Shown here: one piece after another, positions 1 to 27,448 of the stretch | Layout: each line of letters starts with the position of its first letter | How positions within the stretch are numbered: the stretch's first letter is position 1 | Origin: a virus | Virus record (IMG/VR): IMGVR_UViG_3300032241_001605 | Coordinates: 1-31,918 of that record | Strand: one strand, 5' to 3' | Length of the DNA: 31,918 bases | The notes under the pieces: model-generated | Database searches by the model: none | What the model was told of the DNA's origin: nothing | The model's input: the letters and a program-made list of their open reading frames with translations, nothing else | Translations under genes and position numbers: made by a program

Positions 1-7
1 AAGAGAA

Positions 8-36
8 TTTTAGGAAAAACTGTGTGTGCAAAAATT
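8..36 (+). repeat. TTTTAGGAAA / TGTGTG upstream motif
   Basis: A TTTTAGGAAAAACTGTGTG motif followed by an A/T run and TTATC. Near-identical stretches recur at 3634-3665 and 8178-8212, and diverged copies precede most promoters between 500 and 7000. It lies about 30 bp upstream of the first promoter palindrome. Its function is unknown. Confidence 0.7.
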
Positions 37-42
37 ATCCCC

Positions 43-122
43 TCGCGTACGTAAGAAGATTAATTTGACAAAATAGATTTTATGTGCTATAGTGGTTCTA
101 TTCAAGTTTGCAAGTAGCAAGC
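43..122 (+). promoter_or_regulatory. Cassette promoter 1 with upstream palindrome and 5' hairpin
   Basis: The -35 TTGACA is at 65-70 and the -10 TATAGT at 88-93, with a 17-bp spacer ending TGTGC. The imperfect palindrome TCGCGTACGTAA (43-54) is centred 16.5 bp upstream of the -35. Just after the expected start site is a stem-loop, GTTTGC (106-111), loop AAGTA, GCAAGC (117-122), closed through one G-U pair. It drives the gene at 136. Confidence 0.9.
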
Positions 123-135
123 AAGAAAGGAAAAA

Positions 136-378
136 ATGGCTTACACATCACTCAGCGAAGCACAAAACGCAATCGCTAACCTAGTACCATTCAAGGGAAA
201 CTCAATCCGTGGAGAGCGCTCAGGGAACGTCTACTACGTATGGAGTTACAACACCATCATTGCTACCTATGCAATCCCTACAGAGTCGAAGTGGTTCACC
301 GACCAATTCCACAGCGTCACCACATCACGTCATCTAAACATCGCAAAGCGTGGTTTGATGATGGTCAATGAAATGTAG
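136..378 (+). CDS. Small phage protein, cassette gene 1
   Basis: An 80-residue soluble protein. It starts at ATG 136 behind an AGAAAGGA ribosome-binding site. The pattern PFKGNS at residues 18-23, then YYVWSYNTIIATY and a TTSRH motif near residue 62, resembles a family of small actinophage proteins of unknown function (possibly the DUF8033 group, from memory). It has its own promoter and 5' stem-loop and ends just before a three-box DnaA cluster. No enzymatic motif is visible, and I cannot assign a role. Confidence 0.8.
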   Translation: MAYTSLSEAQNAIANLVPFKGNSIRGERSGNVYYVWSYNTIIATYAIPTESKWFTDQFHSVTTSRHLNIAKRGLMMVNEM

Positions 379-381
379 GGT

Positions 382-416
382 TTATCCACAGGGTTATCCA
401 CAGCCCTGTGGATAAC
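382..416. promoter_or_regulatory. DnaA-box cluster A (three perfect boxes)
   Basis: Perfect TTATCCACA boxes lie at 382-390 and 394-402, and an inverted box (TGTGGATAA) at 407-415. Boxes 2 and 3 together form a hairpin, GTTATCCACAG over CTGTGGATAAC. The host initiator DnaA recognises TTATNCACA. The hairpin also sits directly after the stop codon of the 136 gene, where other cassettes carry a terminator-like stem. The same module recurs at 3528-3560. Confidence 0.75.
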
Positions 417-422
417 TTTGCC

Positions 423-534
423 TCGCGTGCGTGCGCGTGCGGGCGCGTGTCGCGTATGCGCGTGCGGGCGCGTATTCGCGTGCGCGACGTGTAAATTTTG
501 TTTTCTGGCAATTTTTAAGAAATCGCGTGTGTGA
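423..534. repeat. CGCG-rich alternating block plus TTTTTAAGAAA motif
   Basis: From 423 to 490 the sequence is almost pure alternating purine-pyrimidine built of GCGTGCG, TCGCG and GCGCG units. An ATTTTTAAGAAA motif (511-522) and TCGCGTGTGTGA (523-534) follow. This G+C-rich block stands out against the A+T-rich genes. It is non-coding on both strands as far as I can tell. Confidence 0.75.
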
Positions 535-554
535 AAAAAAAGTCTCTTTTTAAC

Positions 555-609
555 TTGACAAACAGCGATTGATGTGCTATACTTGTTCTCAACAAGGACA
601 AGCCTTGTT
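555..609 (+). promoter_or_regulatory. Cassette promoter 2 with ACAAG-loop hairpin
   Basis: The -35 TTGACA is at 555-560 and the -10 TATACT at 578-583, with a 17-bp spacer. The leader carries a 7-bp stem, AACAAGG (591-597), loop ACAAG, CCTTGTT (603-609). The upstream TCGCGTGTGTGA is centred 26.5 bp from the -35, about one helical turn further out than in most cassettes. Confidence 0.88.
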
Positions 610-628
610 ACAAACAAAAGGGGCAACT

Positions 629-823
629 ATGCCAACAAACCCAGAAGACTACAAGTTCTACTCTTACACAATCAAAGACGACAGGGGAGACCTCCTTGTC
701 CGTTGTATGATTTGCGGAGAAAAGTCTTTCGGCGAACTCATCATTGATGAGGGCCCAGAAGGCTATCCCGTATGGTTCTCCTGCTGGAATTGCGGGGAGG
801 ACTGTTGGCTCCCGCTCCCATAA
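629..823 (+). CDS. Small zinc-ribbon protein, cassette gene 2
   Basis: A 64-residue protein starting at ATG 629 behind AAAAGGGG. Two cysteine pairs (CMIC near residue 26 and CWNC near residue 53, with a further Cys) are spaced as in a zinc ribbon. An acidic stretch lies between them, and tryptophans are frequent near the C-terminus. Upstream in-frame ATGs would lie before the predicted transcription start, so they are not used. No specific family is recognised. A nucleic-acid-binding or protein-binding zinc module is likely. Confidence 0.8.
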   Translation: MPTNPEDYKFYSYTIKDDRGDLLVRCMICGEKSFGELIIDEGPEGYPVWFSCWNCGEDCWLPLP

Positions 824-830
824 AAGGGGC
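814..830 (+). terminator. Terminator-like hairpin at stop codon
   Basis: GCTCC pairs with GGGGC (one G-U pair) around a seven-base A-rich loop that overlaps the stop codon of the preceding gene. A CGCG block follows directly. There is no long U-tract, so termination strength is uncertain. Confidence 0.45.
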
Positions 831-834
831 TGTA

Positions 835-907
835 TCGCGTGCGTGCGTGCGCATACGCGAACGGCTGGGGATTTTAGGAAAGCCTCGCGCGTGTCTCGCG
901 TACGCGA
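835..907. repeat. CGCG block, TTTTAGGAAA motif and palindrome
   Basis: A TCGCGT...ACGCGA inverted repeat with alternating GCGTGCGTGCG interior spans 835-860. Next come ATTTTAGGAAAG at 871 and a TCGCGTACGCGA palindrome at 896-907. The order is the same in the other cassettes. Confidence 0.75.
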
Positions 908-974
908 AACTACAAACTTGACAAATTACAATTTATGTGCTATAGTATTAGTATTGAGTTTGCAAATAGCAAAC
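896..974 (+). promoter_or_regulatory. Cassette promoter 3 with palindrome and hairpin
   Basis: The palindrome TCGCGTACGCGA (896-907) is centred 16.5 bp upstream of TTGACA (918-923). The -10 TATAGT is at 941-946 with a 17-bp spacer. The leader stem-loop is GTTTGC (958-963), AAATA, GCAAAC (969-974). Confidence 0.9.
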
Positions 975-987
975 AAGAGAGGGAAGT

Positions 988-1164
988 ATGAACCTAAGTA
1001 ACCGACAGATTTCAATGGTTATCACAGCCGTTGAAAACACAGTCAGGGAGTGGGAGCGTACTGAGTCTAATTCTGCTTTGCCAGCGACATTGGTTGCTGA
1101 GCAGGTTGCAGAGTGGACGAAGTTGGCAAACGCTCTTTACGCTGAGTGGGAAGCGATGGTGTGA
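988..1164 (+). CDS. Small helical protein, cassette gene 3
   Basis: A 58-residue protein starting at ATG 988 behind GAGAGGGA. It looks mostly helical, with heptad-like spacing of Val, Leu and Trp and regular acidic residues (EWERTE, AEWTKLANAL, YAEWEAM). It has no cysteines, signal or membrane segment. A full cassette promoter and leader hairpin and good codon structure support it as real despite its length. Function unknown. Confidence 0.75.
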   Translation: MNLSNRQISMVITAVENTVREWERTESNSALPATLVAEQVAEWTKLANALYAEWEAMV

Positions 1165-1173
1165 AAACACCAT
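1156..1173 (+). terminator. GAAA-tetraloop hairpin overlapping stop
   Basis: A 7-bp stem, ATGGTGT over ACACCAT, closes a GAAA tetraloop and contains the TGA stop of the 988 gene. It is not followed by a U-tract. It could terminate transcription, stabilise the 3' end or affect translation termination. Confidence 0.45.
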
Positions 1174-1176
1174 TGC

Positions 1177-1257
1177 TTCGCGTACGCGAAAGCAGTAACT
1201 TGACAAACTACTAAATGTGTGCTATAGTGGTTGTATTGGAGTTTGCAAGTCGCAAAC
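1177..1257 (+). promoter_or_regulatory. Cassette promoter 4 with palindrome and hairpin
   Basis: The 14-bp palindrome TTCGCGTACGCGAA (1177-1190) is centred 16.5 bp from TTGACA (1200-1205). The -10 TATAGT is at 1223-1228 with a 17-bp spacer. The leader hairpin is GTTTGC (1241-1246), AAGTC, GCAAAC (1252-1257). Confidence 0.9.
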
Positions 1258-1270
1258 AGCAAGGAGCATT

Positions 1271-1468
1271 ATGGCAGTAACAACAAAGGACAAGGTTAAT
1301 GTGCTGGTTAAGAACCTACACATTTACCGTGACAATGCGCTCAAAGTGGTTGCAGAGCACGAAGTTACCGAGTTTCCTACGGCAGTTGCCTATGGTGAAG
1401 GTTGGATAGATACAACAAACACGCTTCTAAAGGTGATTGAAGAATTGTTTGCGGAAGAACTTTCATAG
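1271..1468 (+). CDS. Small acidic protein, cassette gene 4
   Basis: A 65-residue protein starting at ATG 1271, placed by an AAGGAG site 5 bases upstream. It is predicted to be helical, with an acidic C-terminal helix (LLKVIEELFAEELS). No cysteines, signal peptide or known motif are present. It sits alone between a promoter and a terminator hairpin, so it is a single-gene cassette. Function unknown. Confidence 0.8.
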   Translation: MAVTTKDKVNVLVKNLHIYRDNALKVVAEHEVTEFPTAVAYGEGWIDTTNTLLKVIEELFAEELS

Positions 1469-1472
1469 TTCG

Positions 1473-1487
1473 CCCCGAAAGGGGTTT
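1473..1487 (+). terminator. CCCC-GAAA-GGGG-TTT terminator-like hairpin
   Basis: CCCC (1473-1476), GAAA tetraloop, GGGG (1481-1484), then TTT. The same hairpin recurs at 4863-4877. The stem is short but very stable and the U-tract is minimal. Confidence 0.6.
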
Positions 1488-1488
1488 A

Positions 1489-1549
1489 TCGCGTGCGGGC
1501 GCGTGCGTACGCGAACACCCAGATAATTTAGGAAACCTCGCGTACGCGA
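1489..1549. repeat. CGCG block, TTTAGGAAA motif and palindrome
   Basis: TCGCG...CGCGA flanks an alternating core at 1489-1514. AATTTAGGAAAC follows at about 1526 and the TCGCGTACGCGA palindrome at 1538-1549. Confidence 0.75.
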
Positions 1550-1588
1550 GAACAATGATTTGACATTTTACAATTTGTGTGCTATTGT
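1538..1588 (+). promoter_or_regulatory. Cassette promoter 5 with palindrome
   Basis: The palindrome (1538-1549) is centred 16.5 bp upstream of TTGACA (1560-1565). The -10 TATTGT is at 1583-1588 with a 17-bp spacer. I find no convincing leader hairpin here, unlike at most neighbours. Confidence 0.85.
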
Positions 1589-1617
1589 AGTTGTTATCAA
1601 GTTATGAAAGGACTATG

Positions 1618-1728
1618 ATGGTTGATTACCTAGCCTGCCTAGAGTGTGAAACGCTGATGGAGAAAATTGACTCTTACCCTGGAGCATTGTGTTTGGACTG
1701 TTACGGAGCGAAGGACGATGACGAATGA
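1618..1728 (+). CDS. 36-residue zinc-finger microprotein
   Basis: A very short protein with two CxxC knuckles (CLEC near residue 7 and CLDC near residue 25), the layout of a minimal zinc ribbon, and an acidic DDDE tail. GAAAGGA precedes two adjacent ATGs (1615 and 1618). The second has better spacing (5 bases). A full-strength cassette promoter and a hairpin after the stop support expression. It may act as a protein-inhibiting or nucleic-acid-binding zinc knuckle. No family is recognised. Confidence 0.7.
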   Translation: MVDYLACLECETLMEKIDSYPGALCLDCYGAKDDDE

Positions 1729-1732
1729 ACAC

Positions 1733-1749
1733 AAACCCCAAAAGGGTTT
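1733..1749 (+). terminator. Terminator-like hairpin
   Basis: AAACCC pairs with GGGTTT around CAAAA, directly before the next TCGCGTACGCGA palindrome. This arrangement could terminate in both directions. Confidence 0.5.
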
Positions 1750-1752
1750 AGT

Positions 1753-1834
1753 TCGCGTACGCGATAGCAACAATTTGACAAATTGTGTTTTATGTGGTAT
1801 AGTAGTTGTTATCAAGTTGTGGAAACGCCACAGC
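1753..1834 (+). promoter_or_regulatory. Cassette promoter 6 with palindrome and diverged hairpin
   Basis: The palindrome (1753-1764) is centred 16.5 bp from TTGACA (1775-1780). The -10 TATAGT is at 1798-1803 with a 17-bp spacer. The leader hairpin GTTGTGG (1816-1822), AAACG, CCACAGC (1828-1834) has a stem quite different from GTTTGC/GCAAAC. Seven pairs (one G-U) and the five-base loop are kept. Confidence 0.88.
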
Positions 1835-1847
1835 GAGAGGAGATAAA

Positions 1848-2048
1848 GTGACTTACACTAACGAACAGGTTGTTACTGTTATTGAAGAAGTCTTAGAAGG
1901 TGTTGCAACGGCGGTTGGTTTTGCATTTATGGTAGGAGACATAACCGAAGAAGTGCGCAACAAGTTTCTAAGTCGTATCGACTACGAGAAGAATGAGGCT
2001 CTTAAGAGTCTTCAAGGAGCAGAGGAACACTATGCAAAGAGACATTAG
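1848..2048 (+). CDS. Small helical protein with GTG start, cassette gene 6
   Basis: A 66-residue protein. An in-frame ATG at 1806 would lie before the predicted transcription start (about 1810), so the GTG at 1848 behind GAGAGGAGA is the likely start. The protein looks helical, with a glycine-containing hydrophobic centre (VATAVGFAFMVGD) and a charged C-terminus. It overlaps the next gene by 17 bases, implying coupled translation. Function unknown. Confidence 0.75.
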   Translation: MTYTNEQVVTVIEEVLEGVATAVGFAFMVGDITEEVRNKFLSRIDYEKNEALKSLQGAEEHYAKRH

Positions 2049-2133
2049 TTTAGAAGTGTGGAATGATGTAGTGGGAGACGTTTTGGAAGCAGAGGCAGAG
2101 GAGCGCTTTCTTCAACGCAGACTTTTAGACTAG
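2032..2133 (+). CDS. 33-residue charged microprotein
   Basis: It starts at ATG 2032 inside the end of the 1848 gene, with AGAGGA five bases upstream. It ends at a TAG forming the base of the following terminator hairpin. The predicted product is one amphipathic acidic/basic helix (EVWNDVVGDVLEAEAEER then FLQRRLLD). The ribosome-binding site, overlap and terminator position support it, but a protein this short could still be a chance reading frame. Confidence 0.55.
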   Translation: MQRDISLEVWNDVVGDVLEAEAEERFLQRRLLD

Positions 2134-2156
2134 CCCCGCCCCGAAAAATTGGGGCT
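2132..2156 (+). terminator. Terminator-like hairpin, duplicated at 3000
   Basis: AGCCCC (2132-2137) pairs perfectly with GGGGCT (2151-2156). A run of over 30 bases here, from the TAG into the CGCG block, is identical to 2999-3034, so the junction was copied recently. Confidence 0.6.
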
Positions 2157-2157
2157 A

Positions 2158-2218
2158 TCGCGTGCGGGCGCAGGCGTACGCGAGGAATCGGAAGATTTAG
2201 GAAGTCTCGCGTACGCGA
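2158..2218. repeat. CGCG block, TTTAGGAA motif and palindrome
   Basis: TCGCGT...ACGCGA flanks a GCGGGCGC core at 2158-2183. GATTTAGGAAG follows at about 2194 and the palindrome at 2207-2218. Confidence 0.75.
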
Positions 2219-2257
2219 ACTAACCGACTTGACAAAATACAATTTGTGTGCTATAGT
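2207..2257 (+). promoter_or_regulatory. Cassette promoter 7 with palindrome
   Basis: The palindrome (2207-2218) is centred 16.5 bp from TTGACA (2229-2234). The -10 TATAGT is at 2252-2257 with a 17-bp spacer. The leader has only a weak TTGT/ACAA stem. Confidence 0.88.
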
Positions 2258-2284
2258 GGTTGTAGTAATAACAAAGGAGAAACA

Positions 2285-2494
2285 ATGGCAATGAAAGCAC
2301 AAGCAAAGTTATTCAAAGCAGAGATTAAGGAGGCTAGTGGATTGTTAAGCAGATTGCGCAACGAGTACCCATTGACCTACACAGACGTAGCGAGTATTCT
2401 TGACCGACTCAACGAGTTGGTTTGGGAGATGCGTGAGAGTTCAGGTGTTGACAAGAAAATCTCGTTAATGCTTGAGGAGTTGCAAAGCCTTTAA
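2285..2494 (+). CDS. Small coiled protein, cassette gene 7
   Basis: A 69-residue protein starting at ATG 2285 behind AAAGGAG. Leucine and isoleucine recur every three to four residues (AEIKEASGLLSRLRNEYP, then VASILDRLNELVWEMRE), consistent with a short helical hairpin or coiled-coil oligomer. No cysteines or signal are present. It is a single-gene cassette of unknown function. Confidence 0.8.
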   Translation: MAMKAQAKLFKAEIKEASGLLSRLRNEYPLTYTDVASILDRLNELVWEMRESSGVDKKISLMLEELQSL

Positions 2495-2516
2495 GGCTTG
2501 CCCCGAAGTTTGGGGT
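2486..2516 (+). terminator. Stop-codon hairpins
   Basis: An AAGCCT/AGGCTT stem spans the TAA stop. It is followed by CCCC (2501-2504), GAAGTTT, GGGG (2512-2515) and a short T-rich stretch before the next palindrome. Confidence 0.5.
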
Positions 2517-2519
2517 TGT

Positions 2520-2598
2520 TCGCGTACGTAAGAAAATTAACTTGACAAAATACAAAAAGTGTGCTAATGTGTTGTTATCAAGTTTGCAAGTAGCAAAC
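2520..2598 (+). promoter_or_regulatory. Cassette promoter 8 with half-conserved palindrome and hairpin
   Basis: TCGCGTACGTAA (2520-2531) is centred 16.5 bp from TTGACA (2542-2547). The -10 TAATGT is at 2565-2570 with a 17-bp spacer. The leader hairpin is GTTTGC (2582-2587), AAGTA, GCAAAC (2593-2598). Confidence 0.88.
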
Positions 2599-2612
2599 GA
2601 GAGGAGAATAAA

Positions 2613-2834
2613 ATGTCATTATCGTCAAGGCGCAAGCGTGAACTACGCAACAAGCGCATTTTTGTTTGGGGTGTTGCTCTTACATCTTACGCTCTAGCCT
2701 ATTTTTGGGTAGAGAGTAAAGTTCCATTCAATAACAATTCTATCCTAGTCCAATGGGCTTGCATTGCCTTTGGTTTGGGCTTTGGTGGTATCGGGTTAAT
2801 TGTTGGTTACTTTGCGGTAGAGGGTAGGCGCTAA
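2613..2834 (+). CDS. Two-helix membrane protein, cassette gene 8
   Basis: A 73-residue protein starting at ATG 2613 behind GAGGAG. A very basic N-terminus (RRKRELRNKR) precedes two hydrophobic segments, roughly residues 17-33 and 46-66, the second glycine-rich (AFGLGFGGIGLIVGYF). By the positive-inside rule both ends should be cytoplasmic. Its TAA overlaps the next ATG (TAATG). It could be a holin-like or membrane-remodelling accessory protein, but no lysin is adjacent, so I leave it unassigned. Confidence 0.8.
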   Translation: MSLSSRRKRELRNKRIFVWGVALTSYALAYFWVESKVPFNNNSILVQWACIAFGLGFGGIGLIVGYFAVEGRR

Positions 2835-3001
2835 TGGGGGCTATCTGCCATCACGCGCACCTCTACTATTCCTGCACTCTTAGTTATGCACAGGCTGTTC
2901 ATAACTTTCACGAAGGTGGGTTGATGTGTGTTAAGGAGTACGGCGCTAAGGTTTGTGCTAAGGCTATGGCTATGGCTCAGCATTATTTAGCCAGTCGTTA
3001 G
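2834..3001 (+). CDS. 55-residue Cys/His-rich protein
   Basis: It is coupled to the membrane protein by a TAATG overlap. It contains four cysteines and several histidines (CHHAHLYYSC near residue 5, then LMCVKEYGAKVC), suggesting metal binding or disulphides. An alanine-rich C-terminal helix follows (AKAMAMAQHYLAS). No family is recognised. The overlap, codon quality and terminator immediately after support a real gene. Confidence 0.7.
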   Translation: MGAICHHAHLYYSCTLSYAQAVHNFHEGGLMCVKEYGAKVCAKAMAMAQHYLASR

Positions 3002-3024
3002 CCCCGCCCCGAAAAATTGGGGCT
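3000..3024 (+). terminator. Terminator-like hairpin, copy of 2132
   Basis: AGCCCC (3000-3005) pairs with GGGGCT (3019-3024). The sequence is identical to the unit at 2131-2166 and leads into a CGCG block in the same way. Confidence 0.6.
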
Positions 3025-3025
3025 A

Positions 3026-3102
3026 TCGCGTGCGTGCGTATGCATACGCGAGGACTTGGAGAAACTTAAAAAACCTCGCGTACGTATGTGTCGCGTACGC
3101 GA
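3026..3102. repeat. CGCG block and double palindromic units
   Basis: TCGCG...CGCGA with alternating GCGTGCGTATGCAT spans 3026-3051. A diverged AAACTTAAAAAACC lies at about 3062, TCGCGTACGTATG at 3076 and the full TCGCGTACGCGA at 3091-3102. Confidence 0.75.
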
Positions 3103-3171
3103 AGCCATTCGGCTTGATTTTTTGGTAAAAGTGTGATACAATTTTTGTATTGAAGTTTGCAAATAGCGAAC
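3091..3171 (+). promoter_or_regulatory. Cassette promoter 9 with palindrome and hairpin
   Basis: The palindrome (3091-3102) is centred 17.5 bp from a weaker -35, TTGATT (3114-3119). The -10 TACAAT is at 3137-3142 with a 17-bp spacer. The leader hairpin GTTTGC (3155-3160), AAATA, GCGAAC (3166-3171) keeps pairing through a G-U. Confidence 0.8.
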
Positions 3172-3185
3172 TATGAAAGGCAGTA

Positions 3186-3524
3186 ATGAAAGTACTGATT
3201 CCAGTAGAAGTGAACGAGAATGAGATTCTCGGAGCAGTTTTCGACAACATCTACCGCAGGTCAAGTCCGTGGATTGTTGAGTACACATTCTCTTTTCGTG
3301 AGATTGAAAACAAAAAAGTTCCAGTTACTTACTGGGACATTAATCAAAAAGTACGGATTAAGTACATTGGAAATACTGACCTCGTAAAAGCGTACGGAGC
3401 ATTGCTTAGGGACAAATTGCAACATTGCGGAGTGCCAGTACCAATGAGTATGGACGAGTGGGACAGTTGCGTTAGCGATTACGTTCTTCAGTACGCCGTG
3501 TTCGGGGGGTTGGTTTACTCCTAG
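3186..3524 (+). CDS. Hypothetical protein, cassette gene 9
   Basis: A 112-residue soluble protein starting at ATG 3186 behind GAAAGG. It reads as a mixed alpha/beta domain. An N-terminal strand (KVLIPVEV) and a helix precede a WIVEYTFSF strand, and RIKYIGNTDLVKAYGALLRDKL suggests a C-terminal helix. Two isolated cysteines do not form a metal site. It ends immediately before DnaA cluster B. I recognise no family. Confidence 0.8.
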   Translation: MKVLIPVEVNENEILGAVFDNIYRRSSPWIVEYTFSFREIENKKVPVTYWDINQKVRIKYIGNTDLVKAYGALLRDKLQHCGVPVPMSMDEWDSCVSDYVLQYAVFGGLVYS

Positions 3525-3526
3525 AA

Positions 3527-3560
3527 GTTATCCACAGGTTATCCACAGGCTGTGGATAAC
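3527..3560. promoter_or_regulatory. DnaA-box cluster B (three perfect boxes)
   Basis: TTATCCACA lies at 3528-3536 and 3539-3547, and the inverted box TGTGGATAA at 3551-3559. Boxes 2 and 3 form an 11-bp hairpin with a one-base centre. The layout matches cluster A at 382-415, with 11 bp rather than 12 bp between the direct boxes, and again sits right after a stop codon. Confidence 0.75.
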
Positions 3561-3566
3561 TCTGCT

Positions 3567-3665
3567 TCGCGTGCGTACGTATGTGTCGCGTGCGTATCGC
3601 GTGCGCGACGCGTGCGTGCGTGCGCGAGGCAGTTTTTAGGAAAAACTGTGTGTGGATTTTTTATC
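3567..3665. repeat. CGCG block followed by TTTTTAGGAAA/TGTGTG motif
   Basis: Alternating GCGTGCGTACGTATG, TCGCG and GCGCGA units fill 3567-3627. TTTTTAGGAAAAACTG then a TGTG run and TTTTTTATC follow at 3633-3665. This copy lacks a TCGCGTACGCGA palindrome before the promoter. Confidence 0.72.
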
Positions 3666-3672
3666 TAGTGAC

Positions 3673-3730
3673 TTGACAAATTGCAATTTATGTGGTATAG
3701 TGTTTCTATTGGATTCTGCAAGTAGCGGAA
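3673..3730 (+). promoter_or_regulatory. Cassette promoter 10 with compensated hairpin
   Basis: TTGACA (3673-3678) and TATAGT (3696-3701) have a 17-bp spacer. The leader hairpin TTCTGC (3714-3719), AAGTA, GCGGAA (3725-3730) differs from GTTTGC/GCAAAC on both strands but still pairs. This is a compensatory change. Confidence 0.88.
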
Positions 3731-3746
3731 CTGATAGGAGAAAACA

Positions 3747-3953
3747 ATGGCTTACAGCGAAACACTAGAACTGATGGAAGGGGTTTATTTTAGCCCTAAG
3801 CAGGTAGTTCAGGCATTAAAGGAACACGGTTTTAAGGGTGAACTAGGTATTCAGGCGTATTGCTCTTTCGTAGAAGACGCTGAAGATTACGCTAGTCACG
3901 AAGACGAGCAGTTGTATTCTGCCGTTGAACTTTATCATTTCTTGGGGTACTAA
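3747..3953 (+). CDS. Small acidic protein, cassette gene 10
   Basis: A 68-residue acidic protein starting at ATG 3747 behind ATAGGAG. The segment PKQVVQALKEHGFKG near residue 18 suggests a helix-loop unit. The rest is rich in Glu/Asp and aromatics (EDAEDYASHEDEQLYSAVEL), a composition seen in DNA-mimic and inhibitor proteins, though this is only compositional. It overlaps the next gene by TAATG. Confidence 0.78.
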   Translation: MAYSETLELMEGVYFSPKQVVQALKEHGFKGELGIQAYCSFVEDAEDYASHEDEQLYSAVELYHFLGY

Positions 3954-4105
3954 TGAAAGTTACCCGCGAACTAGAAAAGATGTTAGACGAAATAAACGAA
4001 ATGAAAGCCAAATGCGGACACATAGACCCTCTTGGGTACTTAGGCAATACCGTATGCGGTAAATGCGCTAGGCGTAATCACCGTAAAACAATGGGGCGGA
4101 GATAA
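3953..4105 (+). CDS. 50-residue C-H-C-C zinc microprotein
   Basis: It starts at ATG 3953, coupled by TAATG. An N-terminal amphipathic helix (TRELEKMLDEINEMKAK) leads into CGH...GYLGNTVCGKCARRNHR, a compact Cys-His-Cys-Cys zinc-finger-like motif, followed by a basic tail. Nucleic-acid binding is plausible. Its TAA stop is the loop of the following hairpin. Confidence 0.72.
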   Translation: MKVTRELEKMLDEINEMKAKCGHIDPLGYLGNTVCGKCARRNHRKTMGRR

Positions 4106-4114
4106 TCTCCCCCC
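4093..4114 (+). terminator. Hairpin with the stop codon as loop
   Basis: GGGG plus GGAGA (4093-4102, one bulged C) pairs with TCTCC plus CCCC (4106-4114). The three-base loop is the TAA stop of the 3953 gene. Confidence 0.5.
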
Positions 4115-4118
4115 GCTA

Positions 4119-4198
4119 TCGCGTACGCGAAATTACTGACTTGACATTTTACAAAATGTATGGTATAGTATTTGTATTGAAGTTTGCAAGTAGCAGAC
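4119..4198 (+). promoter_or_regulatory. Cassette promoter 11 with palindrome and hairpin
   Basis: TCGCGTACGCGA (4119-4130) is centred 16.5 bp from TTGACA (4141-4146). The -10 TATAGT is at 4164-4169 with a 17-bp spacer. The leader hairpin is GTTTGC (4182-4187), AAGTA, GCAGAC (4193-4198), with one G-U. Confidence 0.9.
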
Positions 4199-4211
4199 TG
4201 ATAGGAGAAAA

Positions 4212-4409
4212 ATGCAGACAGCATTAGATTTGATTACGTTTCAGGTAACAAGAAACGAAGCAGACAAGATTCTGATGGGACTTATTACTCGTTCTTACAG
4301 ATTTATTGAACTGGCACTTGAAAACGATAACGTTGATGAAAGTGAGATTGAGCGAAGCATTTCTATCGATTACCGTGCACTTCACGATAAGTTGATGAAT
4401 CAGATGTAG
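4212..4409 (+). CDS. Small helical protein, cassette gene 11
   Basis: A 65-residue protein starting at ATG 4212 behind ATAGGAG. It is predicted to be almost fully helical with alternating acidic patches (ALENDNVDESEIERS) and ends in a basic LHDKLMNQM segment. No metal or membrane motif is present. It is a single-gene cassette between a promoter and a GGGGG/CCCCC hairpin. Function unknown. Confidence 0.78.
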   Translation: MQTALDLITFQVTRNEADKILMGLITRSYRFIELALENDNVDESEIERSISIDYRALHDKLMNQM

Positions 4410-4422
4410 GGGGAATACCCCC
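4409..4422 (+). terminator. GGGGG-AATA-CCCCC hairpin
   Basis: A five-pair G/C stem with an AATA loop, starting at the last base of the stop codon and followed by TGTATCGCG. Confidence 0.5.
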
Positions 4423-4427
4423 CTGTA

Positions 4428-4507
4428 TCGCGTACGCGAAAGCATTGATTTGACAATTTACAAGAAGTATGCTAAAGTAGTTATGTTGGAGTTTGCAAAT
4501 AGCGAAC
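4428..4507 (+). promoter_or_regulatory. Cassette promoter 12 with palindrome and hairpin
   Basis: The palindrome (4428-4439) is centred 16.5 bp from TTGACA (4450-4455). The -10 TAAAGT is at 4473-4478 with a 17-bp spacer. The leader hairpin is GTTTGC (4491-4496), AAATA, GCGAAC (4502-4507). Confidence 0.88.
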
Positions 4508-4521
4508 CTGATAGGAGAAAA

Positions 4522-4857
4522 ATGAGAGACACACTAGACAAAGTATGGGGCGAAGTTGCTCTAACACTTAATGACGCAGTAGCGATTACTTGGGACACTT
4601 GCCACAAGATTTACATTCTTATGGACGAGGAACAAGTTGGTTACATGATTGGTTACGGCTATGACCCGATTATCAGAAAAGAAACAGCAACACCTAAGGA
4701 AATGCTTGCAACGCTCCAAGACTGGTTTGAGAAGTCTTGCGCCTTGAAGTTTATTCAGGCGGTTTCAACTGTCGAAGGCGACCCGAACAATGGTTTTGAG
4801 ACCCTTATCCCGCAGGGTTTCTTTGACCTTGACGAGGACGAAGACGAGGACTACTAG
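4522..4857 (+). CDS. Hypothetical protein with acidic tail, cassette gene 12
   Basis: A 111-residue protein starting at ATG 4522 behind ATAGGAG. Longer in-frame readings begin inside the promoter and are not plausible. The core looks alpha/beta with aromatic strands (KIYILMDEEQVGYMIGYGYD), then a helix (LATLQDWFEKSCALKF). It ends in an unbroken acidic tail, DLDEDEDEDY. Such tails occur in SSB-like and DNA-mimic proteins, but no family is recognised. Confidence 0.8.
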   Translation: MRDTLDKVWGEVALTLNDAVAITWDTCHKIYILMDEEQVGYMIGYGYDPIIRKETATPKEMLATLQDWFEKSCALKFIQAVSTVEGDPNNGFETLIPQGFFDLDEDEDEDY

Positions 4858-4862
4858 ATTTA

Positions 4863-4877
4863 CCCCGAAAGGGGTTT
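4863..4877 (+). terminator. CCCC-GAAA-GGGG-TTT terminator-like hairpin
   Basis: The same hairpin as 1473-1487: CCCC, GAAA tetraloop, GGGG, TTT, then ATCGCG. Confidence 0.6.
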
Positions 4878-4878
4878 A

Positions 4879-4960
4879 TCGCGTACGTATCGCGTGCGCG
4901 ACGCGTGCGCGAGCGCGAACGGTGGCAATTTTTAAGAAAACTCGCGTGAGGATTTTTTAT
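4879..4960. repeat. CGCG block and TTTTTAAGAAAA motif
   Basis: TCGCGTACGTA, TCGCGTGCGCGA and GCGTGCGCGAGCGCGA units fill 4879-4918. ATTTTTAAGAAAACTCGCG lies at 4928-4946, followed by TTTTTTATCC. Confidence 0.75.
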
Positions 4961-4966
4961 CCTGAC

Positions 4967-5022
4967 TTGACAAAATAAAAAAAGTATGGTATAGTTGTAG
5001 TTATCAGTTTGCAAGTAGCAAA
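4967..5022 (+). promoter_or_regulatory. Cassette promoter 13 with hairpin
   Basis: TTGACA (4967-4972) and TATAGT (4990-4995) have a 17-bp spacer. The leader hairpin is TTTGC (5008-5012), AAGTA, GCAAA (5018-5022). The upstream TCGCGT half-site is 19.5 bp from the -35 and not palindromic. Confidence 0.87.
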
Positions 5023-5037
5023 GTGAGAGAGGATAAG

Positions 5038-5613
5038 ATGGAAAAGATTTATTACTATGACAATTACAAGACAGAAATTACTTTAGACGACTGGGCTGAA
5101 AGTCCTCGTGGCTGGGATAATTTAGGCACAATGCTTACTTGGCAACGTGGCTACCGTTCACCAGACAATAATGACTTTGCAACGCCAGACGCCTTTGTTG
5201 AGTGGTGGAATGAGAATTGCGGAGTAAACGGCATTATTTTGCCCGTTTACTGCCTTGACCACGGCAACATAAGTTACTCAACAAGTGATTACAACGACAA
5301 GTGGGACTCTGGTCATGTTGGGTTTATTTACGTCACCAGCGAAAACTTTGCTAAAGAAGGAATAATGCTGGCAGATGCAATAAAAATACTTGAAAATGAA
5401 GTAAAGACTTACTCTCACTACGCTAACGGTGAAGTGTATTCTATTAACACCAGCATAAAAGTAGTTTGCGATTCCTGCAAGCACGTTGAGTGGGAATACG
5501 TTGATGGTTGCGGTGGTTACTACGGTGGGTTTGACCTAGAGGACTTACCAGAGGCTATCCGAGAAGAAGCGCAGAAGGACTTTAACATTACTAATAGAGG
5601 AGTGAGTGTATGA
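5038..5613 (+). CDS. Conserved phage protein with WDSGxVGFIYV signature
   Basis: A 191-residue protein starting at ATG 5038 behind GAGAGAGGA. The central stretch LPVYCLDHGNISYST, then WDSGHVGFIYVTSE (residues about 96-109), matches a family I know from many phages of Gram-positive hosts, always annotated as hypothetical. A Cys pair (CDSC) and the tail CGGYYGGFDLEDLP may bind a metal or form the fold's edge. It is the second largest protein of the cassette array. It overlaps the next gene by ATGA. Confidence 0.85.
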   Translation: MEKIYYYDNYKTEITLDDWAESPRGWDNLGTMLTWQRGYRSPDNNDFATPDAFVEWWNENCGVNGIILPVYCLDHGNISYSTSDYNDKWDSGHVGFIYVTSENFAKEGIMLADAIKILENEVKTYSHYANGEVYSINTSIKVVCDSCKHVEWEYVDGCGGYYGGFDLEDLPEAIREEAQKDFNITNRGVSV

Positions 5614-5714
5614 GTAAAGACAAGACCTATGAAGCGTGGGAGTTTATGAAGGAACACATAATCATTATCCCCGTAGGGTTTCCCCCGCCCGAAAAACCGG
5701 GGGGCGAGGAGTAA
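5610..5714 (+). CDS. 34-residue microprotein
   Basis: ATG 5610 overlaps the preceding TGA (ATGA). A GAGG-type site lies about ten bases upstream inside the previous gene. The product has an N-terminal charged helix, four consecutive isoleucines (HIIIIPVGF) and a proline/glycine-rich tail (PPPEKPGGEE) encoded by hairpin-forming DNA. It may be a genuine microprotein or only a leader read into the terminator. Confidence 0.5.
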   Translation: MSKDKTYEAWEFMKEHIIIIPVGFPPPEKPGGEE

Positions 5715-5720
5715 TCCTCG
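5682..5720 (+). terminator. Double hairpin terminator region
   Basis: CCCCCG/CGGGGG-type pairing at 5682-5704 is followed by CGAGGA (5705-5710), GTAA, TCCTCG (5715-5720) and TTATCGCG. The second loop contains the TAA stop of the 5610 reading frame. Confidence 0.5.
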
Positions 5721-5723
5721 TTA

Positions 5724-5821
5724 TCGCGTACGTAAGTGCGCACACATCGCGTGCGTAATTCGCGTGCGCGATGCGTTAGTACGCGAAGGCTGGGATTTTT
5801 AGGAAAACCTCGCGTGCGTGA
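5724..5821. repeat. CGCG block, TTTTTAGGAAAA motif and half palindrome
   Basis: TCGCGTACGTAAGTGCGCAC, TCGCGTGCG and TCGCGTGCGCGATGCG units span 5724-5786. ATTTTTAGGAAAACC lies at 5795-5809 and TCGCGTGCGTGA at 5810-5821. Confidence 0.75.
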
Positions 5822-5888
5822 AAAATGTTGCTTGACAAAATGAAATTAGTGTGGTATAGTGGTATCTATCAGTTTGCAAGTAGCGAAC
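5810..5888 (+). promoter_or_regulatory. Cassette promoter 14 (ardC-like gene) with hairpin
   Basis: TCGCGTGCGTGA (5810-5821) is centred 16.5 bp from TTGACA (5832-5837). The -10 TATAGT is at 5855-5860 with a 17-bp spacer. The leader hairpin is GTTTGC (5872-5877), AAGTA, GCGAAC (5883-5888). Confidence 0.9.
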
Positions 5889-5903
5889 TATGAAGGGAAT
5901 AAA

Positions 5904-6782
5904 ATGTCAAACAATGCTTACGAGATAGTAGCCCAGTCTATTATCTCTCAACTAGAGAAGGGTACTGCTCCTTGGCGTAAAGAGTGGGTAGCGAGTGGCT
6001 ACGAACCTTTATCACTTAGCAGTAAGAAGCGCTATAACGGAATTAATCATTGGTTGCTATCGTTCTCCGCTATGGGTAACGGTTACAGTAGCCCTTGGTG
6101 GGGTACATTTAAGCAGGTTAAGGCTATGGGTGGAAGTGTGCGTAAGGGCGAGAAGGGTACACCAGTCGTTCTTTACAAGCAGTTCGATACTACTAACGCT
6201 GACGGCGAACCTAAGAAGGCAGTAGTTATGCGTTACTTTACAGTATTCAACGCTGACCAAGCCGACTGGGAGAATGAAGCGCCTAAGTACCAAGCACCAG
6301 AGACCCGACAATCAGTAGAGATTATCGAGAGCGCACAGAAGATAGTAGATACTTACTTTAGTCGTGAAGCGGTAACGCTGGCCTTTGGTGGCGACAGAGC
6401 GTACTACTCACCTAGCGCTGATGCTATTCAACTACCGAATCAGGAATCGTTCACTAACGATAACTCATTCTATGCAACGGCGTTCCACGAGATGGGACAC
6501 TCAACGGGTCACAAGTCACGCCTAAACCGAGATGGCGTAGTGGAGAATCACTACTTCGGTAGTGAACTGTATTCAGAGGAGGAGTTAGTCGCAGAGTTCA
6601 CTAGTGCGTTCTTATCTTCAGAGACTGGAGTTCTACCCGAAACCATTGATAACAGTGCAAGTTACATTGCCAGTTGGTTGAAGGCGCTAAAGAATGACCC
6701 GAAAATGTTGGTTAAGGCAGTCGGCAGAGCGCAGAAGGCTACTGACTACATTCTCAATGGGGCAAAGGTTACTGCTGAGTAA
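5904..6782 (+). CDS. ArdC-like antirestriction protein with zincin domain
   Basis: A 292-residue protein starting at ATG 5904 behind GAAGGG. The N-terminal half (about 5-130) has the ArdC/TraC-type ssDNA-binding signature: APWRKEW, YNGINHW, WGTFKQVKAMGGSVRKGEKG. The C-terminal half is a zincin-like metallopeptidase with HEMGH at residues 195-199 and a downstream EELVAEF that likely gives the third zinc ligand. ArdC proteins of plasmids protect incoming DNA from host restriction, and a phage would use it just after injection. Its strong cassette promoter suits early expression. The family call is firm. Antirestriction activity is inferred. Confidence 0.9.
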   Translation: MSNNAYEIVAQSIISQLEKGTAPWRKEWVASGYEPLSLSSKKRYNGINHWLLSFSAMGNGYSSPWWGTFKQVKAMGGSVRKGEKGTPVVLYKQFDTTNADGEPKKAVVMRYFTVFNADQADWENEAPKYQAPETRQSVEIIESAQKIVDTYFSREAVTLAFGGDRAYYSPSADAIQLPNQESFTNDNSFYATAFHEMGHSTGHKSRLNRDGVVENHYFGSELYSEEELVAEFTSAFLSSETGVLPETIDNSASYIASWLKALKNDPKMLVKAVGRAQKATDYILNGAKVTAE

Positions 6783-6786
6783 CCTG

Positions 6787-6798
6787 CCCCGTTGGGGG
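6787..6798 (+). terminator. CCCC-GTT-GGGG hairpin
   Basis: A short G/C stem after the ardC-like stop, followed by TTATCGCG. The stem is weak. Confidence 0.4.
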
Positions 6799-6801
6799 TT
6801 A

Positions 6802-6940
6802 TCGCGTGTATGCATACGCGAGCAATGATTATTTTTAGGAATCCTCGCGTACATAGGTCGCGTACGCGATAGGTATTTTTAATAAAACGTAGAGCCGAGG
6901 TTTCGTAGTTTTTAGGAAATCGCGTGTGTAAGAAAATTAT
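6802..6940. repeat. Doubled upstream module without a gene between
   Basis: A TCGCG...CGCGA block (6802-6821), ATTTTTAGGAATCC and TCGCGTAC (about 6831-6852), and the full TCGCGTACGCGA palindrome at 6858-6869 are followed by a second set, AGTTTTTAGGAAATCGCG (6907-6924). The first palindrome has no promoter after it. This looks like two fused cassettes from which one promoter-gene unit was lost. Confidence 0.65.
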
Positions 6941-7012
6941 CTCTAAATTGATTTGACAAATTAAACTTTGTGTGGTATAGTGGATACTATGAAGTTGAGC
7001 AAGTCGTTCAAC
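6920..7012 (+). promoter_or_regulatory. Cassette promoter 15 with fully diverged hairpin
   Basis: TTGACA (6953-6958) and TATAGT (6976-6981) have a 17-bp spacer. The leader hairpin GTTGAGC (6994-7000), AAGTC, GTTCAAC (7006-7012) has a different seven-pair stem but the same AAGTC loop as promoter 4. TCGCGTGTGTAA (6920-6931) lies 27.5 bp from the -35. Confidence 0.88.
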
Positions 7013-7036
7013 CGAGTAAATTGAAAGTGAGTAACT

Positions 7037-7219
7037 ATGTCAAAGATGTATGTGGATTATGCAGGTAACTATGGTTCAGCAGAAGATGAGGACTTTATGA
7101 CTTTTAATACTGAAGACCTTAACAAGGCGCAGTTGGAGTTGTTGGAGGAAGACCCTACCGAGTTTTACTTTGCCATTAGTGGCGGTGACTGGTCTTGCCT
7201 AGAGACGAGGGAGGACTAA
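7037..7219 (+). CDS. Small acidic protein, cassette gene 15
   Basis: A 60-residue strongly acidic protein starting at ATG 7037 with a modest GAAAGTGAG site. It begins MSKMYVDYAGNYGSAEDEDF and ends FYFAISGGDWSCLETRED. Beta-rich segments are separated by a Leu/Glu helix (NKAQLELLEEDP). Net negative charge with aromatics is compatible with an inhibitory or DNA-mimic protein, but there is no homology-level evidence. It is coupled to the next gene by TAATG. Confidence 0.75.
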   Translation: MSKMYVDYAGNYGSAEDEDFMTFNTEDLNKAQLELLEEDPTEFYFAISGGDWSCLETRED

Positions 7220-7380
7220 TGGGTATTGATACAGACGGCACAGAATGGCGTACGGTCATTTACACCATAGCCATTGATGTTATTGCAGACAGCGAAGAAG
7301 AAGCACTTTATCAGGCTGAACTACAATTTAGAGACTACCCGTTATCAGAGTTTAATTTAGAAGTTCAAGTTATTGATTAG
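7219..7380 (+). CDS. Small beta-alpha protein (ADSEEEA type)
   Basis: A 53-residue protein starting at ATG 7219 (TAATG). A strand (VIYTIAIDVIA) is followed by DSEEEALYQAELQF and a closing strand (FNLEVQVID). This strand / A-D-S-x-E-E-A helix / strand arrangement recurs in many small phage proteins and in the neighbours at 7457 and 10092, suggesting a shared fold. Function unknown. Confidence 0.75.
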   Translation: MGIDTDGTEWRTVIYTIAIDVIADSEEEALYQAELQFRDYPLSEFNLEVQVID

Positions 7381-7384
7381 TGAC

Positions 7385-7438
7385 TTGACAAACTAAAGAA
7401 AGTATGCTATACTAGTTGTATTGGTGACAAGCGCCAAT
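7385..7438 (+). promoter_or_regulatory. Cassette promoter 16 with ACAAG-loop hairpin
   Basis: TTGACA (7385-7390) starts five bases after the preceding stop. TATACT is at 7408-7413 with a 17-bp spacer. The leader hairpin is ATTGGTG (7420-7426), ACAAG, CGCCAAT (7432-7438), with one G-U. No CGCG block separates it from the upstream gene. Confidence 0.88.
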
Positions 7439-7456
7439 CAAGAAAAGGAGAAAATT

Positions 7457-7666
7457 ATGTCAGTAGAAGTAGAAGAGAAAGTATTTACATACAACGTCAG
7501 GGTTGTTGTGGAGTACGAGTACGAAGTAGAGGTTGGTTCAGAAGCCGAGGCAGAAGCCGAAGGTTGGAATTACGAGGACTACAAACAATTTTGTGGTGTG
7601 TATTCCATTGACGTTGAAGACGTTACCCCCGAAGAAGAAGAAGAAGAAGACGAGGAGGAGAACTAA
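7457..7666 (+). CDS. Extremely acidic small protein
   Basis: A 69-residue protein starting at ATG 7457 behind AAGGAG. A valine/tyrosine strand region (YNVRVVVEYEYEVEVGSEAE) precedes a WNYEDYKQFCGVYSIDVEDV strand. The C-terminus is an almost pure acidic run (TPEEEEEEDEEEN). The fold resembles that of the 7219 product. The charge suggests a protein-binding or nucleic-acid-mimicking role, which is inference only. It is coupled by TAATG. Confidence 0.78.
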   Translation: MSVEVEEKVFTYNVRVVVEYEYEVEVGSEAEAEAEGWNYEDYKQFCGVYSIDVEDVTPEEEEEEDEEEN

Positions 7667-7890
7667 TGTCGTACGAAGTAACTTCAACACAAGCAATTAA
7701 CGCTAGCGTTGCTATTGTTTATGATTACGGTGCGCTTTATTGGGACACCGAGGTAGACCCCGACTGGACTAATGAAGCCATTGAGGAACTTGCTTTGGCA
7801 GAGGTAGTAGATTATTTTGGCGAGCGTATGGGCAAAGGCATTGTAGCCATTGAGATACGCAGTCTATCAAATAGCGAGGTTAGTGCATAA
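7666..7890 (+). CDS. Small acidic protein, last gene of the array
   Basis: A 74-residue protein starting at ATG 7666 (TAATG). Strand segments (NASVAIVYDYGALYWD) are followed by an acidic helix (EAIEELALAEVVDYFGERM) and a terminal strand (GIVAIEIRSLSN). The pattern again looks like a small alpha/beta fold. No family is recognised. A structured non-coding region follows. Confidence 0.75.
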   Translation: MSYEVTSTQAINASVAIVYDYGALYWDTEVDPDWTNEAIEELALAEVVDYFGERMGKGIVAIEIRSLSNSEVSA

Positions 7891-22199: not shown

Positions 22200-23234
22200 A
22201 TGGCAAAGAAAGCGGTAACTCAGGGTAAGGACAACTTAGCCTCAGTTTTAGCAGAGATTAACAAGCAGTTTGGTGCTGGTTCTATTATGAGCCTGAGTCA
22301 ATCAGACGTAGTGCCTGTTGATGTAATCACGACTGGTATTTTGCCATTGGACCTTGCCCTTGGTGTGGGTGGTCTTCCTAGGGGTAGAATTGTAGAATTT
22401 TTTGGACCACCTTCTTCGGGTAAGTCCACCCTTGCTCTTCACGTAATTTCTGAAGCGCAAAAAATGGGACTGACATGTGCCTACGTTGACGCTGAGCACG
22501 CCCTAGATGCCGTTTACGCGGACGTAATTGGGGTTGACCTACCCAGCCTACTAATCAGCCAACCCAACACCGCAGAACAAGGTTTGGAGATTACTATTCG
22601 CCTTGTAGAAAGTGGTGAAATTGGTGTAGTTGTTATTGACTCTGTTGCCGCTTTGGTTCCCCGCGCTGAAATTGAAGGAGAAATGGGCGATGCCCATGTT
22701 GGACTTCAACCAAGGTTGATGGGCCAAGCATTAAGAAAGTTGACAGGAACCGTATCAAGAACGAATACTTTGGTTATTTTTATTAATCAATTGCGTGAAT
22801 CAATTGGAAAGATGTATGGGCCAAGTGAATACACACCAGGCGGTAAGGCATTGCCTTATTATGCTTCAGTTCGACTAGACATTCGACGCATTCAAACCAT
22901 TAAAAAGGGTGAAGAAGCAACCGCTAACCGAACCCGAGTAAAAGTTGTAAAAAACAAAGTTGCACCACCATTAAAGCAAGCAGAATTTGACCTTGAATAT
23001 GGCGTTGGTGTTCCAAAAGCCAATGCTCTTCTTGATTGTGCTATTGACGCAGGTGTTTTGCGTCAATCCGGTGCTTGGATATATTATGAGGGTGAGCAGT
23101 TTGCAAACGGAAGATTGAAAGCAAAGGCTAAACTAGAAGAACAACCAGAATTGTATGAAACTATATACAATCAGGTAATTGCTACAATGGAAAACAAAAA
23201 TTTTAAAATAGGACTTGACAATGACGAAAATTAA
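22200..23234 (+). CDS. recA: RecA recombinase
   Basis: A 344-residue, full-length RecA starting at ATG 22200 behind GGAGG. Walker [10 protein letters not shown] is at 69-77 (Pro replaces the usual Glu), [10 protein letters not shown] and [22 protein letters not shown] supply the ATPase core, and [12 protein letters not shown].. with [19 protein letters not shown] covers the L2 and core end. The short C-terminus lacks an extended acidic tail. It drives strand exchange and LexA co-cleavage. It heads a recombination operon under an SOS box and overlaps the next gene. Confidence 0.96.
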
Positions 23235-23243
23235 TGCTAAACT
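23215..23243 (+). promoter_or_regulatory. Internal promoter at the recA end
   Basis: TTGACA (23215-23220), 17-bp spacer, TAAACT (23238-23243) preceded by ATGC, nearly the same as cassette promoter 12. The start (about 23250) falls inside the LexA-like gene, so it would drive 23468 and downstream genes. Confidence 0.6.
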
Positions 23244-23442
23244 AGATAACGAAAAGAAAATTACAAAGGCAATTGAAAAGTGGTACAACAAGCATGCTTA
23301 CGGTCCAAGTTATCGTGACCTATCGGAGATGACTGAAATGTCCCTAGGAAATGTCTTTAGTGCTTGTCAGCAATTGAGGGAAGCAAAAGTAATTACTTTC
23401 CAAGATGGTGTAGCAAGAACAATAAAACTATTGAATAAATAA
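23221..23442 (+). CDS. LexA-type DNA-binding-domain protein without protease
   Basis: A 73-residue protein starting at ATG 23221 inside the end of recA. The whole protein matches the winged-helix N-domain of Lex[59 protein letters not shown]. Compare LexA's I..FI...GYPPS.REIA...G..S...V...L..LE..G.I....G.ARAI.L. The S24 autocleavage domain is absent. Next to an SOS-controlled recA it may compete with or modulate host LexA. A generic winged-helix regulator is the alternative. Confidence 0.7.
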
Positions 23443-26977: not shown

Positions 26978-27132
26978 ACGTAGAACATCACTATGTTGAT
27001 TTTATTTTTAATAAAGAAAAATATGAAGTCAAATGCACATGTTCTTGGAAAGTTTTAGTTCCCAAAAGAAGTGAAGCAGTATCATCTGCCTATCAACACC
27101 TTGCGGATATGTCGGCAGAACGAGATGTTTAA
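26959..27132 (+). CDS. 57-residue small phage protein
   Basis: Starts at ATG 26959, overlapping the HNH gene by 19 bases. Strands (HHYVDFIFNKEKYEVKCTCSW) with a CxC pair are followed by a helix (SEAVSSAYQHLADMSAE). The KCTCSW...A...HLADM arrangement is familiar from actinophage small proteins of unknown role. Its stop lies inside the WhiB gene start. Confidence 0.72.
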   Translation: MVLGRINVEHHYVDFIFNKEKYEVKCTCSWKVLVPKRSEAVSSAYQHLADMSAERDV

Positions 27133-27448
27133 ATATTCCGACTACGAAATCCTAGAATTTATTAGAGTCCTTGAAGAATCAAGACCTGATTTTTATTGGC
27201 TTGCGTTGTGTCGTAATTCAAACACAAAAGAATTTTTTCCTGGTCGAGGTCAATCGTCAAAAATTAAAAAGGCTGTTGAAATGTGCCTCTATTGCCCAGT
27301 GCAATACGAATGCCATGAGTACGCCATTGATAATAAAATAGAACATGGAGTTTGGGGAGGCTCAACTCCAGAACAGAGGGCAAGATGGATACAGAACGAC
27401 GTGACGGTTCACGACGCATGGCTGGAAATAACTCCAGAACTAGAATAA
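27125..27448 (+). CDS. WhiB-family transcription factor
   Basis: A 107-residue protein. The four iron-sulphur cysteines are C29, C54, C57 and C63 (ALCRNSNTKEFFPGRG, CLYCPVQYEC), and GVWGG (75-79) is the WhiB turn. WhiB-like proteins bind a [4Fe-4S] cluster and the host sigma factor SigA, and occur only in Actinobacteria and their phages. TM4 WhiBTM4 represses host WhiB2. ATG 27125 is chosen because it puts the domain at the usual distance. GTG 27071 is an alternative. It ends convergent with the minus-strand block. Confidence 0.92.
   Translation: MFKYSDYEILEFIRVLEESRPDFYWLALCRNSNTKEFFPGRGQSSKIKKAVEMCLYCPVQYECHEYAIDNKIEHGVWGGSTPEQRARWIQNDVTVHDAWLEITPELE

Follow-up and report, generated by a model that had tools for sequence, protein, structure and literature searches.

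Inverted-repeat sites held at a fixed position and common to several phage promoters are known for P2 Ogr and P4 Delta (about -55 for Ogr) and for P1 Lpa (gp10; about -22). In phage Mu, a Mor dimer recognizes a 16-bp element that is centred at -43.5, contains inverted repeats of 5 bp and replaces the -35 at Pm (PMC4390567). The IscR dimer also has its site over or near the -35, where a 1-nt register sets activation or repression, and it compensates for a poor -35 (PMC8561392). Among actinophages, in cluster A a short repressor site, the stoperator, is repeated many times across the genome (PMC9283540), and in cluster K the start-associated sequences (SAS) and their extended form (ESAS) are conserved repeats at the starts of many small non-structural genes, some of them with inverted repeats (PMC3203893). 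Here we describe a 12-bp palindrome, TCGCGTACGCGA, which stands at a constant distance upstream of the promoters of a row of small genes in an uncultured virus. The DNA analysed, hereafter the window, is the entire IMG/VR record IMGVR_UViG_3300032241_001605, of 31,918 bases and 43% GC.

The small-gene row extends across bases 1-8400 of the window, and most of its genes have their own TTGACA-N17-TATAGT promoter with an extended -10, TGTGNTATAGT. We found that at ten of these promoters the 12-mer ends exactly 10 bp before TTGACA, its centre lying 16.5 bp before the first T, just as the initial annotation had measured. Seven of the ten sites are the perfect palindrome, at 896..907, 1178..1189, 1538..1549, 1753..1764, 2207..2218, 4119..4130 and 4428..4439, and they precede, in that order, the plus-strand promoters at 918..946 (TTGACA-N17-TATAGT), 1200..1228, 1560..1588 (-10 TATTGT), 1775..1803, 2229..2257, 4141..4169 and 4450..4478 (-10 TAAAGT; N17 in both of these variants). 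The other three are degenerate: TCGCGTACGTAA at 43..54 and at 2520..2531, before the plus-strand promoters at 65..93 (TTGACA-N17-TATAGT; gene 136-378, MAYTS) and 2542..2570 (TTGACA-N17-TAATGT; gene 2613-2834, MSLSS), and TCGCGTGCGTGA at 5810..5821, before the plus-strand promoter at 5832..5860 of the gene 5904-6782, which encodes an ArdC-type anti-restriction protein. In these degenerate sites the promoter-distal half, TCGCGT, is unchanged, and the promoter-proximal half is altered by transitions only (8 changes in the window and its close relative L012). An eighth perfect palindrome, at 3091..3102, lies 11 bp (centre 17.5 bp, again as first measured) from the poor -35 TTGATT of a weak plus-strand promoter, TTGATT-N17-TACAAT, at 3114..3142. 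The phased sites are intergenic, palindromic, in register with the promoter and about 65-95 bp upstream of the start codon.

Allowing up to three mismatches, 45 sites occur in the window against 6.6 expected by shuffling, a count reached in none of 100 shuffles. With a random position drawn for each perfect palindrome inside the intergenic gap where it lies, the probability that seven of the eight share one gap was ~6e-11, a figure that ignores shared ancestry and, the cassettes being related by recombination, overstates the case. In pairwise comparison, the mean identity of the palindrome is 0.91 and that of the 10-bp gap 0.47 (composition alone would give 0.32), and just upstream it drops to 0.28, which is random; in the window and L012 together the gap takes the form of 13 different 10-mers with a mean Hamming distance of 5. 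The upstream neighbours of the phased palindrome vary as well, with a terminator-like hairpin directly before those at 1753, 2520, 4119 and 4428, a TTTTTAGGAAA-like block before 1538 and 2207, and such a block together with a further TCGCG run before 896 and 3091. Since the gap sequences have diverged and the palindrome keeps its gap in these differing contexts, the length of the gap appears to be under constraint, beyond what copying would leave.

Relatives were gathered through the terminase of L012 (57 loci) and through an ArdC search, which gave L016 and L025. L012, with 93% DNA identity to the window over the longest shared stretch, carries the palindrome at seven promoters and the gap is 10 in all seven. 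The more distant L099 (record of L059, G005) and L025 have a variant palindrome, ATCGCGC-NN-GCGCGAT, before dozens of small genes, some of which are orthologous: homologues of MAYTS and MSLSS carry the site in both, and a MAYSET homologue does so in L099. In L099, 24 of the 31 TCGCGC-NN-GCGCGA sites precede an extended -10, at 16 nt (12 sites), 17 nt (9), 15 nt (2) or 14 nt (1), so that 21 of the 24 fall at 16-17, and in L025 all 15 sites end 12 (10), 13 (3) or 11 (2) nt before it. In both, a script picked the -10 from a search range of 10 bp, a choice that favours tight distances without creating them. TTGACA is absent from all these L099 and L025 promoters, and records G005 and G020 contain few TTGACA-type promoters, near control counts. 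If transcription starts 6-7 nt after the -10, the site is centred at about -52 in the window, -35 in L099 and -30 in L025. The half-site and the register within each lineage are thus conserved, while the absolute position is not, and fixed phasing relative to the promoter, which the initial annotation had proposed, finds support in the close relative and, in altered registers, in the distant ones. The trait is widespread in the group with a register set per lineage. It is not universal, since a MAYTS homologue in L092 lacks the site, the palindrome of L016 is out of register and record G010 uses TTGACA promoters without any palindrome. A scan of bacterial genomes for the palindrome with a consensus promoter gave four scattered matches, none at gap 10, so that no host regulon was seen, and the palindrome array was not found in the Arthrobacter phages DrYang and Abba.

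Promoter-phased palindromes as such already occur in cultured actinophages, since Arthrobacter phage Waltz (L106) has an unrelated one, CTAACAG-N-CTGTTAG, at a fixed place in several promoters. In Waltz, however, it lies inside the spacer between -35 and -10 (TTGACA promoters with spacer palindromes of this kind at 14782, 19024, 19609, 21896, 46259 and others), and the leaders there bear hairpins similar to those described below. A limited search of the open-access literature turned up no paper describing either the array reported here or the promoter palindromes of Waltz.

Compared with the other systems, the layout of L099 and L025 resembles that of Mu Mor/C, as an inverted repeat at a fixed place replaces the -35, and the dyad likewise keeps a fixed position relative to the -10. 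Such promoters are very few in Mu, however, whereas the present phages have dozens, each serving one small gene; besides, the window and L012 keep TTGACA, with the window site further upstream, the -35 being absent only in L099 and L025. The late promoters served by P2 Ogr/P4 Delta and P1 Lpa differ in sequence and in host group, and the genes served here are small and non-structural. No Mor/C homologue was identified in our material, and no Ogr- or Lpa-like protein was found. The position of the site near the -35 recalls IscR, which differs in being a host Fe-S regulator. The SAS of cluster K is an asymmetric 13-bp sequence, GGGATAGGAGCCC, within 3-7 bp of the start codon, whereas the present element has a different sequence and is a palindrome upstream of the -35.

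We infer from the arrangement a regulator protein, its contact with RNA polymerase and the sign of its effect. That a regulator of either sign acts on these promoters through the palindrome seems probable. The more specific reading that we favour, with about an even chance of being right, is that the palindrome is the site of a putative dimeric, sequence-specific regulator that acts on RNA polymerase at each cassette, with a leaning towards activation. In L099 the central dinucleotide is free (CC, AC, TC, GC, TG, GA and GG) and the half-sites are fixed, as expected for an uncontacted spacer, which argues for a dimeric protein site and against Z-DNA, an RNA hairpin and an UP element. The last of these had been raised in the initial annotation, which spoke of an activator or UP-like site. 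The UP-like part finds no support, as the site is palindromic and GC-rich (G or C at 8 of the 12 bases of TCGCGTACGCGA) and does not consist of the A/T-rich tracts at about -40 to -60 that mark UP elements. Holding to 0-1 bp in each lineage, the register suggests an interplay with RNA polymerase. A dimer, encoded by the phage or recruited from the host, would bind the palindrome, and the fixed distance to the core promoter at each single-gene cassette would let the bound protein act on the polymerase. At about -52, the window site would be within reach of the carboxy-terminal domain of the polymerase alpha subunit (alpha-CTD) or of a contact with sigma, and in L099 and L025 the site occupies the place of the missing -35 hexamer. 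Because the site of the relatives replaces an absent -35 and that of the window could be reached by alpha-CTD or sigma, we lean to activation; an activator proper we rate slightly below an even chance.

Several observations weigh against this reading. The window promoters have a consensus -35 and an extended -10 and should not need an activator, and in the IscR system an optimal -35 abolishes dependence on the regulator (PMC8561392). Similar core promoters of the window, at 7385, 10014, 10581, 11470, 14369 and 24888, have no palindrome, as is also the case for those of G010, so the palindrome is not universally required for core promoters of this type. The half-site spacer of L025 varies between 0, 2 and 4 bp, which is odd for a rigid dimer, the shifts of register between lineages are not whole helical turns, and the scripted choice of the -10 mentioned above bears on the distances in L099 and L025. 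No regulator was found either, as the distribution of the ribbon-helix-helix (RHH), WhiB and winged-helix candidates discussed below does not follow that of the palindrome. An activator as first annotated is therefore plausible but falls short of proof, given the perfect -35 and extended -10, the palindrome-free promoters and the repressor as a live rival.

If the favoured reading holds across lineages, we may be looking at one regulon of dozens of single-gene cassettes in a family of uncultured actinophages, with one palindromic site sliding from -52, next to a full -35, to -35 and -30, where the -35 is replaced; we advance this tentatively, as a possibility that we hold to be rather doubtful. 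It would provide a natural series in which the half-site TCGCG shifts from modulating a self-sufficient promoter to substituting its -35, and the lineages would constitute a natural spacing experiment on the distance that a regulator may shift relative to the -35 without losing its function. It would also make a regulon readable in uncultured actinophages of freshwater type, as the site marks the small genes (probably for host takeover) that are under common control. The palindrome could serve as DNA bait for catching the regulator.

The closest rival, which we rate somewhat below activation, is a repressor operator. A phage protein bound there would shut off the small-gene cassettes at a later stage of infection, or in a prophage; in the relatives it would cover the polymerase footprint, and in the window it would touch alpha-CTD or bridge sites. 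The window promoters seem capable of firing without help, the site of L099 and L025 falls within the polymerase footprint, as simple steric repression would have it, and the cassette with the ArdC-type gene would be needed before any phage activator could be made. Against this, a plain steric block needs no register of 0-1 bp, -52 is outside the usual steric zone, and the promoters of L099 and L025, which systematically lack the -35, would be weak. Mycobacteriophage cluster A repressors do act at many sites (PMC9283540), but stoperators are asymmetric and share one orientation, are spread both within and between genes, and are bound by a monomeric L5-type repressor that also stops elongation, whereas the present site is palindromic, intergenic and phased with promoters. 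Moreover, 11 records, each of which may be a fragment, gave no tyrosine or serine integrase or resolvase, which would make a role in immunity less likely.

It is improbable that the palindrome/promoter repeats are mainly homologous-recombination sites that shuffle one-gene cassettes, the constant gap being inherited by copying. Gene order and promoter parts are indeed reshuffled in L012 as against the window, and the junctions fall in the palindrome or the -35 (for example at the palindrome 1178..1189, against L012 12042), and genes for RecA, a RecE-like exonuclease and Erf are present. However, copying does not explain gap sequences that diverged at a constant length, or the new fixed registers of other lineages, and the insertion that L033 shows at 10011, with its promoter region duplicated, uses a palindrome-free promoter.

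Much less probable is a Z-DNA or supercoiling sink, in which CG-rich alternating purine-pyrimidine runs ahead of the promoter would adopt the Z form: in the window and L012 almost every TCGCG element alternates and the changes in phased sites are all transitions, but the phased window sites keep an exact sequence and not mere alternation, and the central dinucleotide of L099 mostly breaks it (CC 12, TC 5, TG 2, GA 1 and GG 1 of 31). We give even less credit to the palindrome as the -35 of a phage sigma factor, for which the right half-site of L099 has the canonical -35 spacing of 16-17, as both half-sites are conserved, the spacing in L025 is 12, the window promoters are ordinary TTGACA/TATAGT ones and no match to sigma-70 region 2 or 4 appeared in 14 records, which may be incomplete (controls were positive). 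A terminator role was rejected on inspection by eye only, as the palindrome would form a four-pair hairpin without a T run and separate terminator-like hairpins stand upstream.

With respect to candidate regulators, the window encodes on its plus strand a 73-residue LexA-like winged-helix protein (23221..23442) and a WhiB-like factor (27071..27448). The former is modelled with a predicted local distance difference test score (pLDDT) of 89 and has a template modelling (TM) score of ~0.8 to the DNA-binding domain of LexA, although the best E-values are only ~0.005; the fold search also matched Z-alpha domains, and the wing and recognition helix read like LexA. Both proteins occur in large records with or without palindromes and do not discriminate. 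The RHH-like protein of L012 is not favoured, as the palindrome-rich G005 and G020 lack it while records that have no phased palindromes contain it. The regulator may be a host protein.

The window further encodes a single-stranded DNA-binding protein (SSB), a DnaB-type helicase, a replication initiator and a tail fibre, its annealing protein is Erf-like, and a GroES-like co-chaperonin gene lies at 8814-9116 on the minus strand. Actinophages are the best matches of its RecA and SNF2-type helicase, and of the L012 terminase. WhiB is confined to Actinobacteria and the phages that infect them. Nanopelagicales, a freshwater order, has two cultured phages, and both carry WhiB and have ~45% GC (PMC10202952). 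Taken together, these features make a low-GC freshwater actinobacterium the likely host, as judged from sequence. A near-identity search of window bases 1-8400 against 50,697 phage records gave no match, a distant-mode search with one 131-bp module gave chance-level matches only, and the small genes of the window as queries returned L012 or nothing, ArdC excepted.

Other elements of the window are outside the fixed register. Degenerate versions occur at 523..534 (TCGCGTGTGTGA), centred 26.5 bp from the -35 at 555, at 4942..4953 (TCGCGTGAGGAT), 19.5 bp from the -35 at 4967, and at 6920..6931 (TCGCGTGTGTAA), 27.5 bp from the -35 at 6953. The distances given in the initial annotation for 555 and 6953 are right, but the class about one helical turn further that it built on them does not hold, as it omitted 4967 and also 3673, which has a TGTGTG run only, and the four L096 promoters, all of this second class, give 19.5, 22.5, 23.5 and 27.5. 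Members of the second class have a TTTTTAGGAAA-like block, a degenerate TCGCGTG run and mostly a T-rich stretch, at no fixed distance from the promoter. A perfect palindrome at 6858..6869 has no promoter within 80 bp. A longer related element, TCGCGTGCG...CATACGCGA, stands at 835..860, after the preceding gene and before the phased site, and similar ones are found at 1489-1514, 2158-2183, 3026-3051 and 6802-6821. The TTTTTAGGAAA block followed by TGTGTG or TCGCGTG, often with ATTTTTTATC, recurs between genes at window 840-8260 (for example 3635-3665) and in L096, L066, L067 and L093; in L067 and L093 the block is found in ~60-bp tandem units directly before leader hairpins.

Such hairpins follow the -10 of most promoters in window 65-11550, and also occur in L012, L099 and L025. 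They begin about 5-12 nt past the -10 and have 4-11 pairs, mostly with a loop of five bases (AAGTA, ACAAG, AAACG, GCAAG or similar), and their stems vary by gene yet still pair. They gave no Rfam match and are possibly an undescribed mRNA leader element.

Other repeats were also found. Clusters of the DnaA-box-like TTATCCACA at window 365-420 and 3525-3565, and at L012 10305-10350 and 11245-11285, form an inverted repeat that is also terminator-like, followed by CG-rich alternating runs. On the reverse strand of L092, at 19000-21500, the small-gene region repeats another palindrome, roughly TTACYGNNCRGTAA, and L099 (record of L059) opens at 1-270 with a long tandem GGGCGCGT array ahead of the cassette region. 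AAGTACCTACAA repeats lie at window 9975-10010, just upstream of the 10014 promoter. At this promoter, comparison of L033 near 19613-20542 with window 10011-10084 shows ~550 bp inserted and the promoter region duplicated, and the insert holds a homologue of the window gene 3186-3524, a recent gain or loss of a cassette.

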